Shown one piece after another: positions 5,869 to 14,016 of a DNA stretch of 33,453 nt. Both the position numbers and the translations under genes were made by a program. Within the stretch, counting starts at the first letter, position 1, and each line of letters opens with the position of its first letter. The notes beneath the pieces were generated by a model that saw nothing but the letters and a program-made list of their open reading frames with translations, was not told where the DNA came from and made no database searches. The DNA is from Erysipelothrix aquatica (GTDB lineage: Bacteria > Bacillota_I > Bacilli_A > Erysipelotrichales > Erysipelotrichaceae), in assembly GCF_009828775.2 (NCBI RefSeq), contig NZ_WTSY02000023.1:1-33453 (forward strand), given 5' to 3'.

Positions 5869-6504
5869 ATGTTTAAAAAACTAACGTCACTTCTCTTCAA
5901 AGAAGAGGAAATTGTGATTGAAGAAGAAATTGAAAAGCATGATAAAAAAGAAGAGGAATCACTTGTCATTCCAAATCTGAAGCCAATGGTCGCAAAACCA
6001 AAGGAAACGAAAGTAGAGCCTGCTTCCGCAGTCTCAGCACCTGCGCCGACATTTAAAGACTCAAATAGAGAAGAAACTCACAACAGTATAGATTCTACTC
6101 AAGAAACACGTAAATCGATGATGATTGATGTGGATATTGATACGCATCCTGAAGTGAAAGAATCCAAAGTGAAAACCGAGGAAAAAATTGCTGCACGTCG
6201 CGAGGTAAAATATCAACGTAAAGAAATTATCAGTCCAATTTTTGGTGGTTCTGATAATGGTGCTGAACCACTTTCGAATGCAAAACCACACTATCAAGAT
6301 GCAAAATCACGTGCACCTAAAACAAGTGTGATTAGTCCAATGTTTGGACAAATTGAAGTAACAGAACCTGTACATGAACAAATCTCAGAAGATGTCATGG
6401 ATATGGACGTCACTGAATTATTAGCACCAGAGCGTACAGAGGAAGAAGTCCAAGTATCACTCTATGACTATCTTGAGGAGCTTGATAAGCATGAATCAAA
6501 ATAA
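5869..6504 (+). CDS. charged, largely disordered protein with paired SPxFG motifs; unknown
   Basis: The 211-residue product begins with a short amphipathic basic helix (MFKKLTSLLFK) that could sit on the membrane, followed by an acidic/Lys-rich region (residues 12-115) that looks disordered. Two near-identical motifs follow: ISPIFG at 121-126 and ISPMFG at 155-160, 34 residues apart. The C-terminus is acidic and ends in a probable helix (SLYDYLEELDK). AGGGGG lies 12 bases before the ATG. The gene overlaps murC by 14 bases. The layout resembles a peripheral membrane scaffold, possibly for division or wall synthesis, but this is inference from architecture and from the murC context only. Confidence 0.75.
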   Translation: MFKKLTSLLFKEEEIVIEEEIEKHDKKEEESLVIPNLKPMVAKPKETKVEPASAVSAPAPTFKDSNREETHNSIDSTQETRKSMMIDVDIDTHPEVKESKVKTEEKIAARREVKYQRKEIISPIFGGSDNGAEPLSNAKPHYQDAKSRAPKTSVISPMFGQIEVTEPVHEQISEDVMDMDVTELLAPERTEEEVQVSLYDYLEELDKHESK

Positions 6505-8307: not shown

Positions 8308-8986
8308 ATATGATGATATACTCAACGAACTTGTTTATAAAATAGACGATGTGGTGTACGATTTCTATAGTAAAAGTAATGAACTCATTGCAACCAAAGC
8401 CAATCAAGATCGCCTCTTCACATTCCGTGATAAAACAATCAATACCATCAATGATATGAATGTTCGTTCACTGGAGATGATTTCTGGATTTAGAAGTGAA
8501 AGTCTTGTTCGCGAACGTACTGAAAATCTTTATGACAAGAATATTCAACTTATTCAATCAGCGTATGATGTCATTGAAGCATCACCAAACAAAAGTGAAT
8601 TCTTAGAAGATGTTCAAAATTTTGCAAGTGGTGTCTATACACAAGCCAAAGATATGGTGAAACGTGTTGAAGATTCTGGTGCAATCGATCGCATTACTGA
8701 TTCTGCACAAGTGGGGTTCAAAAAAGTACAAGATAGTTGGGATGAATTTGCAACAAATCCAACTGTTGTTAAGAATGTAGAAACACTTAAAGAAAAAACG
8801 AAAGAAGCTGTAGATTACGGTGCTAAAGTCATCCAAGATACATCTAAATTCGTTGCTGATAAAGTGTCTGAAACAAAAGAAAAACCATCAGATCCATCCT
8901 CAATTTACGTATCATCAACTGATGAACTACGCGATGTCATTGAAGATGTGACTGAACACACAACTGAACAGAAGGATGATAATTAA
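8300..8986 (+). CDS. helical protein in the YtxH position; unknown function
   Basis: The 228-residue product is mostly amphipathic helix with repeated Val/Lys/Asp-rich segments resembling YtxH or LEA-like proteins (QNFASGVYTQAKDMVKRVED; TLKEKTKEAVDYGAKVIQD). Unlike typical YtxH it has no obvious N-terminal glycine-rich membrane segment. ATG 8300 overlaps the YtxG-like gene by 8 bases; a TTG at 8291 is a possible alternative but sits too close to the GAGG. Position between ytxG and ccpA suggests it fills the ytxH slot, perhaps partnering the membrane-anchored YtxG-like protein. Function is unknown. Confidence 0.7.
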   Translation: MTKYDDILNELVYKIDDVVYDFYSKSNELIATKANQDRLFTFRDKTINTINDMNVRSLEMISGFRSESLVRERTENLYDKNIQLIQSAYDVIEASPNKSEFLEDVQNFASGVYTQAKDMVKRVEDSGAIDRITDSAQVGFKKVQDSWDEFATNPTVVKNVETLKEKTKEAVDYGAKVIQDTSKFVADKVSETKEKPSDPSSIYVSSTDELRDVIEDVTEHTTEQKDDN

Positions 8987-8987
8987 T

Positions 8988-9983
8988 ATGAAACGCGTCA
9001 CTATATACGACGTAGCAAAAGAAGCGGGAGTATCCCTTGCTACAGTTTCACGAGTTATAAACGGACTTGAAATTGTTCGTGAAGAAACACGTGTTAAAGT
9101 CGAATCCGCTATTGATAAGCTTGGTTACAAACCAAATGCTATCGCCCAAGGTTTAGCACTTCAAAAAACAACAACAATTGCGTTACTTGTTCCAGAAGCG
9201 AGCTTTGCATATACTGGCCAAATCATTAACGGTTTGATCGATGTAGCGAAAATTTACAAGTATAGCATTATGTTACACACGATGACAGAAGGAATTGTTG
9301 ATATCAAAGATGTTATCGATGATGTTATCAAGTCACGAGTTGACGGTGTTATTATTTATAACGACAAATTAATGGATACTGAATTGGAAGAGTTAAGTAA
9401 ATATCAATTCCCAATCGTTATTATTGGAAATAAGATGTCAGACAAACAAATTTCATCAGTATATGTTGATATTGAAAAAGCAGTTTATGAACTTACAATG
9501 AATCAACTTGCGAAGAACAAAGACCGTAAAGTTGGTATTATTCAAGACCGTAAAAACGACTTTACAACCAATCAAATGATTCAAGGTGTACGTCGTGCAT
9601 ACGCTGAAATGGGACGCGATACAGAAGGATATATCGAAATTCCATCTGAATACCGTCGTTCGTATGATTATTTCTTAGATCACATCGAGGATATGGAATA
9701 CGACTTCTTAATTGCTAACCGTGACTCACAAGCCATCTCAGCCATGAATGCTGCGCATGAACGTGGAATGTCAATTCCAGATGATTTAGAAATTGTCTGC
9801 TTAATTGACTCGAAGTACAATTCAATGGTACGTCCTCGTCTCTCAAGCTTTGCGATTCCAGCATATGACTTGGGTGCGGTATCGATGCGTGTCCTTACCA
9901 AAATGCTTAATGACGATGAGGTAGAAGATAAAGAAATCGAACTCAGTTACCTTTATACACCACGTCAATCAACACGAAACTAA
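8988..9983 (+). CDS. ccpA: catabolite control protein A (LacI family)
   Basis: CcpA is the LacI/GalR-family regulator that, with HPr-Ser-P, represses or activates carbon genes at cre sites. The 331-residue length matches B. subtilis CcpA (334). The helix-turn-helix (VTIYDVAKEAGVSLATVSRVINGL) is at residues 4-27, the hinge helix is near 50-57, and the C-terminal VRPRLSSFAIPAYDLGAVSM matches the CcpA dimer/HPr face. The hinge reads AQGLA where CcpA usually has ARGLA. ATG 8988 follows AAGGA by 11 bases. The murC-ytxG-ytxH-ccpA order supports CcpA over another LacI member. Confidence 0.85.
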   Translation: MKRVTIYDVAKEAGVSLATVSRVINGLEIVREETRVKVESAIDKLGYKPNAIAQGLALQKTTTIALLVPEASFAYTGQIINGLIDVAKIYKYSIMLHTMTEGIVDIKDVIDDVIKSRVDGVIIYNDKLMDTELEELSKYQFPIVIIGNKMSDKQISSVYVDIEKAVYELTMNQLAKNKDRKVGIIQDRKNDFTTNQMIQGVRRAYAEMGRDTEGYIEIPSEYRRSYDYFLDHIEDMEYDFLIANRDSQAISAMNAAHERGMSIPDDLEIVCLIDSKYNSMVRPRLSSFAIPAYDLGAVSMRVLTKMLNDDEVEDKEIELSYLYTPRQSTRN

Positions 9984-10003
9984 AGAGAGCAATCTCTTTT
10001 TTT
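9982..10003 (+). terminator. ccpA terminator
   Basis: AAAGAGA and TCTCTTT form a 7-bp stem around GCAA, continuing into a run of T. Confidence 0.85.
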
Positions 10004-10087
10004 CTTACCTTCACAAATACTTAATATTTTAATGAAACGTATGAATAATGTGATTTATATAGAAAATTAAATATTTGTGTTTATCTA

Positions 10088-10118
10088 TTGACAGAAACTA
10101 CCTAAAGAGGTAATATTA
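10088..10118 (+). promoter_or_regulatory. strong promoter for the C-rich leader RNA and Nudix gene
   Basis: A perfect TTGACA (10088-10093) is followed after 17 bases by TAATAT (10111-10116); TATTAT at 10113-10118 is an alternative -10 at spacing 19. The start would be near 10123, leaving a leader of about 120 bases. Confidence 0.8.
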
Positions 10119-10121
10119 TAC

Positions 10122-10233
10122 ATGGTCAGAGATGGCCAATCGTTTATCGACAAATAATCTTTACCCCCCCACCCAAGATATTTGTTCGATAGACAACTTC
10201 ATTGAAAGGCGCAGCAGCGTCTTTTTTATTTTA
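10122..10233 (+). ncRNA. structured leader or small RNA with C-rich loop and its own terminator
   Basis: After the promoter come a small GGTC/GGCC hairpin (10124-10137), then a long stem: GTTTATCGACAAATA (10142-10156) pairs with TATTTG-T-TCGATAGAC (10179-10194), 15 bp with one bulge. Its 22-base loop (10157-10178) holds seven C, an A and three more C, apparently unpaired. GGCGC/GCGTC (10208-10221) around AGCA, followed by TTTTTT, is an intrinsic terminator. The Nudix ribosome site AGGGGGT (10233-10239) follows directly and is complementary to the loop (ACCCCC with GGGGGT). It could be an independent small RNA, an attenuator, or both. No known family was recognised. Confidence 0.6.
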
Positions 10234-10245
10234 GGGGGTTACAAA

Positions 10246-10752
10246 ATGTTACTACATGAATTTTATGACACATTATATCCAAACACTGGATTTACATCCA
10301 TTCGCAAGACTACCCGAGCTATCGTGCTGAACGAGCACAATGAGGTCGCAATGATGCATATTAAAGGAAATGATATCTTCGGGCCACGTGATCATTATGA
10401 GACGCCAGGGGGTGGCGTAGAAGGCTCAGAGACTCTTGTTGAAGCAATAAAGCGTGAAGTCCTTGAAGAGGTTGGCTATGAGTGCGAGATTGAGTCGTAT
10501 TTAGGTTCAGTTATTAATCGTTACAATTTACTGGAAGTGATTACCATGCATCATTTCTTTGTCGTTCGAATTACAAAAAAAGCATCGACTGCGTGGACCG
10601 ATGCTGAGAAGGAATGGTTTGATGGTGTGGTTTGGAAAACGCCTGAGTCATGGCGAGAGATTCTAAATGAACCACGAGAAATGGTTAATGAATTAGTCCA
10701 TGACCGGGAGCGTTTCATTATTGACTATTACTTAAATCAATTAAATAAGTAA
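10246..10752 (+). CDS. Nudix hydrolase
   Basis: The 168-residue protein has a complete Nudix box, G-x5-E-x7-REVLEEVGY, starting at GGGVEGSETLVEAIK, so it should cleave a nucleoside diphosphate linked to some other group; the substrate cannot be told. ATG 10246 is chosen because AGGGGGT lies 6 bases upstream. An upstream in-frame ATG at 10132 would require translating the structured leader (stem, C-run and terminator), which is unlikely. Its 3' end overlaps the convergent mnmM gene by 35 bases with no terminator between them. Confidence 0.88.
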   Translation: MLLHEFYDTLYPNTGFTSIRKTTRAIVLNEHNEVAMMHIKGNDIFGPRDHYETPGGGVEGSETLVEAIKREVLEEVGYECEIESYLGSVINRYNLLEVITMHHFFVVRITKKASTAWTDAEKEWFDGVVWKTPESWREILNEPREMVNELVHDRERFIIDYYLNQLNK

Positions 10753-11284: not shown

Positions 11285-12071
11285 GTAATCTAATAATAAC
11301 AACATCTGGATTTGTAAACAATCTAAATTCTGGTTTGCTTGTGCCTACACCAGAACTTTGAATCATAATTGTTTCATCATATTGTTTGCGTTTTTCATTG
11401 TACTTACTGGATGGGAATAGGGCTCCAATGAGTGGTAGTCTAATTTTTCCATTCATAGATTTCCCAGTAATCATGACATCCATGGTCTGATCTCGTAAAC
11501 TGTCGTAGACATCCGGATTATGTGCAACGGTAATTACAAAGCCACCATCAACAACGGTTGGATAGGTAATACTTGCATTTGTGTTCAAGCCAACGAGTTG
11601 AATCGATTCATTCGTTTGGTTATGAATTGGCGTTACACTGTTGTCGAGAATGCGAAACCCAGAAGTTTGAAGGGTTTGACGTGCTGTGTCGTTTGAACTT
11701 GGAATATCGCCACTTCCAAGAACCGCATATTTTCCAAGTTTGTCTGGAATACTTGTGAGTAAGTCACGAATAGCAACTTCATCACTTGCGGTTGTTGTTT
11801 CGTCGAATAAGTTACCAGAGAAGACAACGATATCCGGTTGATATATTTTTAAATGATCAACAGCTTTATTTAAGTTTGAGATATTTCCATTCACATCCGA
11901 AATAACACCAATTGATGCATTATGGAATGAGGGTGGAACCTTTTCGGATACTACAGTTTCGAAGCGAAGCGATACCCGACTTAATGAAAACAAAGTCATT
12001 TCTAAATAAACTCCAACAAGTAATGAAAATATAATCAGTAAGGAAATTATTTGTCTTTTCTTACGCTTCAT
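11271..12071 (-). CDS. degenerate YkuE-type metallophosphoesterase, membrane-anchored
   Basis: The 266-residue product has one N-terminal membrane anchor (residues 8-28) followed by a calcineurin-like phosphoesterase fold. Fold landmarks are present but most metal ligands are replaced: the SDLHxG motif reads SDVNGN (58-63), GDLxD reads GNLFD (86-90), GNHD reads GSGD (119-122), and GHTHGGQ reads GKSMNGK (203-209). HNPD (184-187) survives, as does the C-terminal GVGT...RLFTNPDV pattern. It is therefore probably not a metal-dependent phosphatase, although the frame is intact. Its ATG overlaps the rnjA stop by 11 bases, so it is translationally coupled to RNase J. Confidence 0.8.
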   Translation of the reverse strand: MKRKKRQIISLLIIFSLLVGVYLEMTLFSLSRVSLRFETVVSEKVPPSFHNASIGVISDVNGNISNLNKAVDHLKIYQPDIVVFSGNLFDETTTASDEVAIRDLLTSIPDKLGKYAVLGSGDIPSSNDTARQTLQTSGFRILDNSVTPIHNQTNESIQLVGLNTNASITYPTVVDGGFVITVAHNPDVYDSLRDQTMDVMITGKSMNGKIRLPLIGALFPSSKYNEKRKQYDETIMIQSSGVGTSKPEFRLFTNPDVVIIRLQNPQ

Positions 12072-14016
12072 GAGTTTCTACTGAAGATTCAGGTTGCTTT
12101 ACAACGTCAGTCTTCGTCGGTTGTTTTGCTTTCGCTTGAGCGGGTTTCTTTACTTGTTGATTGGGATTCTTCTTAGGCTTTGGTTGTTGTTTCGCTGGAC
12201 TGTTTTGTTTTTGGTCCTTTGATTCAGCTTTGGGTTTATTGTTTTGACCTTGCTTGTTTTGTTTTGGCTTTTGAGTTTTCCCTTGTTTTTGCTTGGCATT
12301 TTTCTGTGGCGCTGATGCATCCACAGTTTGCCTTTGGTTTAAGATAACAGGAATTACAAGCGGGTTACGTTGTGTGTGTTTGTACAAGAATGGTTCTAAA
12401 GAACCACGAATTGTATTTTTAATTTCACCAAATGTAACTTTCTTTTGCATACGTTTTTTGAGTGCTTCGTACACAACTTGTTCAGCTTCTTTGAGAAGTG
12501 TTTGATTTTCTTTAATAAAGACGAAACCACGACTTACAATACTTGGTTTAGCCAATATCTTGTTTTGTCGGGAATCAATCGTAACCACGACACTTACCAA
12601 TCCACTGTCAGATAAGATTTTACGGTCTTTAATAACTGCAGTAGAAAGTCCACTGGAGTCGTTACCGTCAACGTAGATGTCATCCGCTTGAATACGAACG
12701 TCTGTTTGGAAGACTTCGCCACTTCGAATTGCGAGTACATCACCGTTAGAACAGATAAAGATGTTTTCAGGTTTAACACCTGTTTCGATAGCTGTTTCTT
12801 TGTGTGTTTTTAACATTTTGTATTCCCCATGCATTGGCATGAAGTATTTTGGTTTGATCAGTTGTAACATCAAGGTCTGCTCATCTTTGGAGGCATGCCC
12901 TGTAGTATGAAGTGAATTGAGTGGTGAATTAGTAAGGACGTTTGCTCCAGCACGACTGAGGCGGTTGACGACTTGTGACACACTCGGTCCATTTCCAGGA
13001 ATTGGACTTGATGAGAAGATCACAGTATCTCCAGGAATAATGCTTACTTGTCGGTGTGTTCCGTTTGCGATACGGCTAAGCGCAGCAAGAGGCTCACCTT
13101 GAGATCCTGTACAGAGTACTAGAACTTTATCAGCAGGCAATTTATTGAGTTGGTTAGCATTGATAAAGTTTTTATCAGATGCTTTAATATGACCTAGTTT
13201 TCGAGCAATCGTGATGACGTTTTCCATGCTTCGTCCAAATACGGCGATTTTTCGATCTTGTGCGATTGCCGCTTCAATGATTTGTTGGACGCGGTAAACG
13301 TTGGAAGCAAAGGTAGCAATGATAATACGACCTTCTACCTTTTTAAAGATGCGATTAATCTCTTTCGCAACATCTCGTTCACTAATTGAGAATCCACTAA
13401 CTTGAGCATTGGTCGAATCACTCATAAGAAGTGTGACACCGATTTCTCCCATGTAAGACATAATTTGATAATCCGGGTTTTCACCAACAGGTGTTAAGTC
13501 GAACTTAAAGTCACCGGTTGATACGATTCTTCCGTTTGGTGTATTTACAAGAACACCTAAAGCATCAGGAATCGAGTGAACGACATTAAAGAAGCCAATT
13601 ACAAAGTGTTTTGTTGTAACTTTTGATTCAGAACTAATTTCTTGAATTTTATGCTTTGTTTTAATCTTGCGTTCTTCAAGTTTACGTTCGATTTGTGCTT
13701 TCGCAAAACGTGGCGCGTAAATCATTGGAATGGTTACGCGTTGTAGAAGAAATGGAATTCCTCCGATGTGGTCTTCGTGACCGTGAGTAATGATTAATGC
13801 TTTGATTTTGTGTTGGTTTTTTACAAGATGTGAAAAGTCGGGGATGACATAGTCAACGCCAAGCAAATCGTCCTCTGGGAACATGACACCGGCATCAATG
13901 ATGATAATCTCATCATCGTGCTCAATGACATACATATTTTTACCAACTTCGCCTAAACCACCTAAAGCATATACAAGGGTATCGGTTTTGCGAATTGAAT
14001 TGTTATTTTCTGCCAT
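12061..14016 (-). CDS. rnjA: ribonuclease J (with K/Q/P-rich C-terminal tail)
   Basis: RNase J is a metallo-beta-lactamase/beta-CASP nuclease with 5'-3' exo- and endonuclease activity, central to mRNA decay and rRNA maturation in Firmicutes. The 651-residue protein has GGLGEVGKNMYV, the metal motif HGHEDHIGG (near residue 78), SDSTNA, PGDTVIFSSSPIPGN and a late MPMHGEY. The usual domain ends near 566; the last 85 residues are Lys/Gln/Pro/Asn-rich low complexity, probably disordered and RNA-binding. AGGAG precedes the ATG. The gene follows def by 8 bases and overlaps the phosphoesterase-like gene, forming a def-rnjA-phosphoesterase unit. Confidence 0.95.
   Translation of the reverse strand: MAENNNSIRKTDTLVYALGGLGEVGKNMYVIEHDDEIIIIDAGVMFPEDDLLGVDYVIPDFSHLVKNQHKIKALIITHGHEDHIGGIPFLLQRVTIPMIYAPRFAKAQIERKLEERKIKTKHKIQEISSESKVTTKHFVIGFFNVVHSIPDALGVLVNTPNGRIVSTGDFKFDLTPVGENPDYQIMSYMGEIGVTLLMSDSTNAQVSGFSISERDVAKEINRIFKKVEGRIIIATFASNVYRVQQIIEAAIAQDRKIAVFGRSMENVITIARKLGHIKASDKNFINANQLNKLPADKVLVLCTGSQGEPLAALSRIANGTHRQVSIIPGDTVIFSSSPIPGNGPSVSQVVNRLSRAGANVLTNSPLNSLHTTGHASKDEQTLMLQLIKPKYFMPMHGEYKMLKTHKETAIETGVKPENIFICSNGDVLAIRSGEVFQTDVRIQADDIYVDGNDSSGLSTAVIKDRKILSDSGLVSVVVTIDSRQNKILAKPSIVSRGFVFIKENQTLLKEAEQVVYEALKKRMQKKVTFGEIKNTIRGSLEPFLYKHTQRNPLVIPVILNQRQTVDASAPQKNAKQKQGKTQKPKQNKQGQNNKPKAESKDQKQNSPAKQQPKPKKNPNQQVKKPAQAKAKQPTKTDVVKQPESSVETHEA

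Follow-up and report, generated by a model that had tools for sequence, protein, structure and literature searches.

C-rich loops that act at Shine-Dalgarno sites are the usual small-RNA device in low-GC Gram-positive bacteria such as Staphylococcus, Listeria, and Bacillus, and the group of RNAs with C-rich motifs includes IsrR, RsaE/RoxS, FsrA, and RNAIII. The C runs of Staphylococcus aureus IsrR have been shown to act on Shine-Dalgarno sites (PMC9410917), and a C-rich loop of Listeria monocytogenes LhrC has been shown to pair with a G-rich stretch just ahead of where translation of its target, a surface adhesin, begins (PMC4132741). The Streptococcus csRNAs carry anti-Shine-Dalgarno stretches together with a terminator, and such action has been predicted for them (PMC3091779).

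Here we describe a predicted small RNA gene with a C-rich loop in a 33,453-nucleotide stretch of Erysipelothrix aquatica DNA (contig NZ_WTSY02000023.1), which we call the window. The genus Erysipelothrix includes the animal pathogen E. rhusiopathiae, and the literature that we searched described no small regulatory RNA for it. The functional kind, a C-rich-loop regulator, is known from related bacteria but, in that literature, not from Erysipelothrix, and the RNA is not in Rfam.

A small RNA gene between a ccpA-like gene and a Nudix hydrolase gene

On comparative evidence, this small RNA gene is real, and it has a predicted promoter and terminator of its own. It sits in a 260-bp gap between a ccpA-like LacI-family gene (8976-9983) and a Nudix hydrolase gene. 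The parts of the RNA gene and the gene that follows it are these:

10088 to 10116, plus strand: promoter recognized from the sequence, with -35 box TTGACA (10088-10093), a 17-nt spacer, and -10 box TAATAT (10111-10116)
10122 to 10229, plus strand: small RNA gene of about 108 nt, 5' end predicted (fold z -6.2; homologues in 10 of 13 genomes)
10124 to 10137, plus strand: 5' hairpin GGUCA-GAGA-UGGCC with a GNRA tetraloop (3 of 5 pairs compensated in a nine-member alignment; GNRA retained in G011)
10142 to 10194, plus strand: main stem of 19 pairs, arms 10142-10161 and 10175-10194, with a single bulge at 10157
10162 to 10174, plus strand: open C-rich loop UACCCCCCCACCC, 13 nt, the presumed seed (identical in 7 of 10 copies)
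10195 to 10203, plus strand: single-stranded linker AACUUCAUU, invariant across the 8 close homologues
10204 to 10229, plus strand: intrinsic terminator, a hairpin (10204-10225) plus a T run (3 pairs changed on both sides in the nine-member alignment)
10246 to 10752, plus strand: Nudix hydrolase gene starting at ATG 10246 (PF00293, E 5e-12), with ribosome site AGGGGGT at 10233-10239

A first-pass annotation made from the sequence had proposed that the RNA has its own promoter and terminator, and both held up. The promoter (TTGACA-17-TAATAT) is kept in all homologues, including those in G011 (TTGACA-17-TATAAT) and G008 (TTGACT-17-TATACT), and the predicted RNA start at about 10122 coincides with the start of the conserved block in relatives. 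The stretch 10122-10229 has a fold energy of -34.2 kcal/mol, against -16.6 +/- 2.8 for shuffled sequences (z -6.2), and each C residue of the loop has a computed unpaired probability of about 1. The window contains the sequence CCCCCCCACCC a single time, whereas 0 of 100 shuffles contain it.

The same annotation had described a 15-bp stem presenting a 22-base C-rich loop. A long stem with an open C-rich loop is indeed present, but the stem has 19 pairs, and the open loop is 13 nt long because UCUU and AAGA pair inside the supposed 22 bases, pairs that are kept in the eight close homologues. The GNRA hairpin at 10124-10137 had been missed. The predicted RNA has two of the properties of the functional class of Gram-positive C-rich-loop trans-acting small RNAs: it is short, with its own promoter and intrinsic terminator, and it carries a single-stranded C run complementary to Shine-Dalgarno sites.

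Covariation and diverged copies

We fitted nine copies to a covariance model because MAFFT misaligned the stem when G011 was included. In this model-based alignment, whose counts therefore lean towards structure, 12 of 32 pairs had changes on both sides (shuffles, 3.5; slid controls, 0 to 3), and 97.6% of cells were paired; the corresponding values for the main stem were 6 of 19 pairs and 96.6%. An alignment of eight copies showed compensatory change in three stem pairs. Its loop and flanks were identical in seven copies, and the G007 copy lacked six bases and kept five C. The stem thus covaries among homologues, as the first-pass annotation had asked to see, and the C run is conserved in 10 of 10 copies with at least five C in each (C5 in G007 and G011, C9 in G008).

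Two homologues have diverged in sequence to the point where their architecture alone survives. The G011 copy, largely different in sequence, has a GUCUA-GAAA-UAGAC hairpin and, when G-U pairs are included, a perfect 13-pair stem with loop CCCCCAUACA; it also has a terminator (fold z -5.3). The G008 copy has a weak 5' hairpin, a perfect 11-pair stem with loop CCCCCCCCCAUACAUU, and a terminator (fold z -5.5). Both have a GACCGGU-type linker in place of AACUUCAUU.

These copies also bear on whether the region is translated, as a short reading frame or as a 5' extension of the Nudix protein, an explanation that we find hardly credible. The frame from ATG 10132, which the first-pass annotation had singled out as the observation to look for against an RNA, does extend into Nudix in G000, the genome of the window. 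However, its equivalent stops after 3 codons in G002, G009, and G005, the stop in G012 and G007 falls inside the RNA, and the G011 copy has no start codon in its first 45 nt, so that most relatives have lost the frame or have it cut short. Moreover, the changes track pairing, not codons.

Distribution of the RNA

An initial DNA search of the genus found 8 copies in 13 Erysipelothrix genomes, and covariance models brought the number of genomes with a homologue to 10, with one copy per genome. Model R1, which did not contain the G011 sequence, first detected the G011 copy as a sub-threshold match (E 0.2) directly upstream of the G011 Nudix gene. Model R2, built from the eight copies plus G011 and without G008, gave E values of 1e-17 to 1e-21 for the eight copies and 8e-10 for G011, all nine of which are in the model. 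The G008 copy, which is in neither model, matched R2 at E 0.09 and lies immediately after the ccpA-like gene. G010, G001, and G006 had no copy next to ccpA or Nudix, and nothing elsewhere in these genomes rose above background. A match in G010 (L032:5683-5763) sits within an mnmM-like gene, and we rejected it as chance.

Searches of the family (272 genomes) and the order (315 genomes, overlapping sets) gave terminator-like chance matches only, with no credible copy outside the genus, and the plasmids, phages, and viral contigs searched contained no copies. As far as searched, the RNA appears restricted to one genus. The first-pass annotation's view of it as a candidate new RNA agrees with Rfam 15, which found nothing in the window but a tRNA; families including LhrC, RsaE/RoxS, FsrA, and riboswitches did not reach the gathering cut-off. 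A permissive Rfam search of 9984-10300 gave no match at E up to 5, and the relatives L005, L306, and L314 had no Rfam match. On a ccpA tree, both branches of the deepest split, which is well supported (midpoint root), include genomes with the RNA, a pattern suggesting an origin as early as that of the genus, with two or three losses. The RNA is not essential, because it is absent from some species.

Relationship to the Nudix gene

The RNA precedes the Nudix gene in 9 of the 10 RNA-bearing genomes, the exception being G008, and there the promoter, RNA, and terminator are followed within a few tens of bases by the Nudix start codon. We found no promoter, nor room for one, between the terminator and the Nudix gene, and therefore part of the Nudix mRNA probably arises by read-through of the terminator. 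The two stay together even where a surface-protein gene, not ccpA, precedes the RNA (G002, G009, G005, and G007, with the ccpA-like gene several kb off). This arrangement is what one would expect of a cis-acting Nudix leader, an attenuator or riboswitch whose terminator controls read-through upon a signal.

We nevertheless consider a leader fairly unlikely. A leader always precedes the gene that it regulates, but on the G008 contig the ccpA-like gene and the RNA are followed by a metallophosphatase-like gene in convergent orientation and then by an RNase J-like gene. The Nudix and MnmM genes are absent there, and the search of this genome, which is 84% complete, gave no Nudix orthologue. Conversely, G010, G001, and G006 have the Nudix gene after ccpA with the RNA missing between them, so that the RNA and the Nudix gene are separable in both directions (INDEPENDENCE from Nudix). 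No conserved segment capable of forming an antiterminator was seen, the lowest-energy folds all retain the terminator, and no Rfam riboswitch matched. Sequence identity between G000 and G002 is 88% for the RNA and 62% for the Nudix gene. Together with the separability, this difference argues that the RNA is conserved as a unit of its own, and the case shows how a small RNA may be mistaken for the leader of a gene that happens to follow it.

The first-pass annotation had also offered a cis switch, with base pairing between the C loop and the Nudix Shine-Dalgarno site of one and the same transcript. GGGGGU at 10234-10239 is complementary to the loop ACCCCC, with a pairing energy of -12.3 kcal/mol. 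This complementarity stands in G000 and its nearest relative, G004, the only genomes in which the pairing is above average. It does not exceed chance in the others, and the energies of -5.4 to -8.9 kcal/mol in G002, G003, G005, G007, and G012 are ordinary for these genomes. G008 has no Nudix gene to switch, and when a longer transcript is folded, the linker takes up the site and the loop does not, although the program is blind to pseudoknots. Comparison has already largely refuted a cis switch, which we regard as very improbable. Since the RNA is separable from Nudix and the complementarity between loop and site is limited to G000 and G004, the RNA is best read as free-standing and trans-acting.

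Some features of the neighborhood are recorded here as observations. An RNase J gene (Pfam) lies a few genes past the small RNA (window 12061-14016, minus strand), and the Nudix gene near it has weak similarity to RNA pyrophosphohydrolases; with MnmM, metallophosphatase, and deformylase, the neighborhood has an RNA-processing flavor. Upstream of the RNA promoter, between the terminator of the preceding gene and the -35 box, four genomes carry an inverted repeat similar to TTACTTTGTTAGCAAAGTAA that may be a regulator site (L005 at about 1450-1500 and equivalents in L006, L007, and L008). Nothing similar was found in G000, G008, or G011.

Proposed action and search for targets

We think it likely that the locus is an independent gene for a small regulatory RNA that acts in trans by base pairing, and that this gene is ancestral to Erysipelothrix or almost so. 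The trans-acting RNA of about 110 nt put forward by the first-pass annotation accords with the RNA that we find, which is conserved and strongly covarying, is about 108 nt long, and has a C-rich loop. Action in trans on Shine-Dalgarno sites is inferred by analogy because all ten copies share the exposed run of at least five C, the usual Gram-positive device at such sites. Pairing would begin between the C-rich loop and Shine-Dalgarno sites rich in G (of the GGGGGU or GGGUGGG type) on several mRNAs, and it would block ribosome loading and hence translation. The 5' hairpin may protect the RNA end, and read-through of the terminator would add to the Nudix mRNA.

We computed duplex energies for 1084 crude gene predictions from sampled stretches of G004 and G009. 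Secreted-like proteins made up 12 of 39 of the best sites in G004 versus 64 of 409 (p ~0.02, uncorrected and with several thresholds tried); they were not over-represented among the best sites in G009 (6 of 67). Predicted pairing was uncorrelated between orthologues (90 pairs, G004/G009, rho -0.01), and this comparison yielded no conserved target set. GGGGGT and GGGTGGG before ATG, counted relative to the reversed pattern, showed no clear difference between genomes with and without the RNA; the search for GGGGGU ribosome sites suggested by the first-pass annotation therefore found GGGGGT starts no commoner in RNA-bearing genomes. Its proposed target, the gene at 5869, does have a site that pairs well (-14.4 kcal/mol), but so do about 9% of the sampled G004 genes.

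The individual candidate targets, with gene names given by eye from their sequence, are a glgD-like gene of G000 and G004 (GGGGGUAAAGA), genes for large secreted proteins in G004, a gene for a membrane protein in G002, G005, G007, and G009, and a transporter-permease-like gene of G004 and G009. In G004, unusually G-rich ribosome sites with five to seven consecutive G precede several genes for large surface or secreted proteins (L302, L298, L283, L286, L289, and L303). In G009 (L247, L253, and L267), the same 90-aa frame with a GGAGGAAGGTGGGG leader occurs seven times in arrays spaced ~5.4 kb; these frames appear to be spurious predictions within repeated ribosomal RNA operons, not genes.

The failure to find a conserved mRNA target between G004 and G009 would also be expected if the loop bound or titrated a protein, not mRNAs. 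The long loop flanks (CUUUACCCCCCCACCCAAGAU), invariant in seven genomes, point the same way, being more than a loose anti-Shine-Dalgarno seed needs. However, the copies in G007, G011, and G008 vary in loop flanks and length and keep the C run alone, as expected of a pairing seed, and we judge protein binding to be quite improbable. As a small regulatory RNA gene, the locus offers clear comparative evidence, predicted ends, a candidate seed, natural loop variants (the two C5 species and the C9 species), and natural absences; the regulon is therefore directly testable.

Comparison with known small RNAs

Like the csRNAs, the Erysipelothrix RNA combines an anti-Shine-Dalgarno stretch with a terminator. 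The csRNAs, however, occur several per genome and depend on CiaR, and their anti-Shine-Dalgarno and anti-AUG sequences lie in an unpaired stretch between two stem-loops; the Erysipelothrix RNA is single copy with its anti-Shine-Dalgarno sequence in an apical loop, which sets it outside the csRNA family. IsrR is likewise an RNA of a low-GC Gram-positive bacterium with its own terminator and stem-loops that present single-stranded C runs, but its C-rich regions number three and its promoter is under Fur control, whereas the Erysipelothrix RNA has one C-rich loop and no Rfam match.

LhrC shares with the Erysipelothrix RNA a C-rich loop complementary to G-rich ribosome sites, through which the Erysipelothrix RNA would act. 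It differs in being multicopy and LisR-controlled, with three UCCC sites, as opposed to a single copy with one site. A broader and rather unlikely reading would make the Erysipelothrix RNA the main Shine-Dalgarno-blocking regulator of the genus, controlling surface or secreted proteins through their unusually G-rich ribosome sites, with its repeated loss marking shifts in lifestyle. If this were true, the RNA would be comparable with LhrC and the adhesin that LhrC targets.
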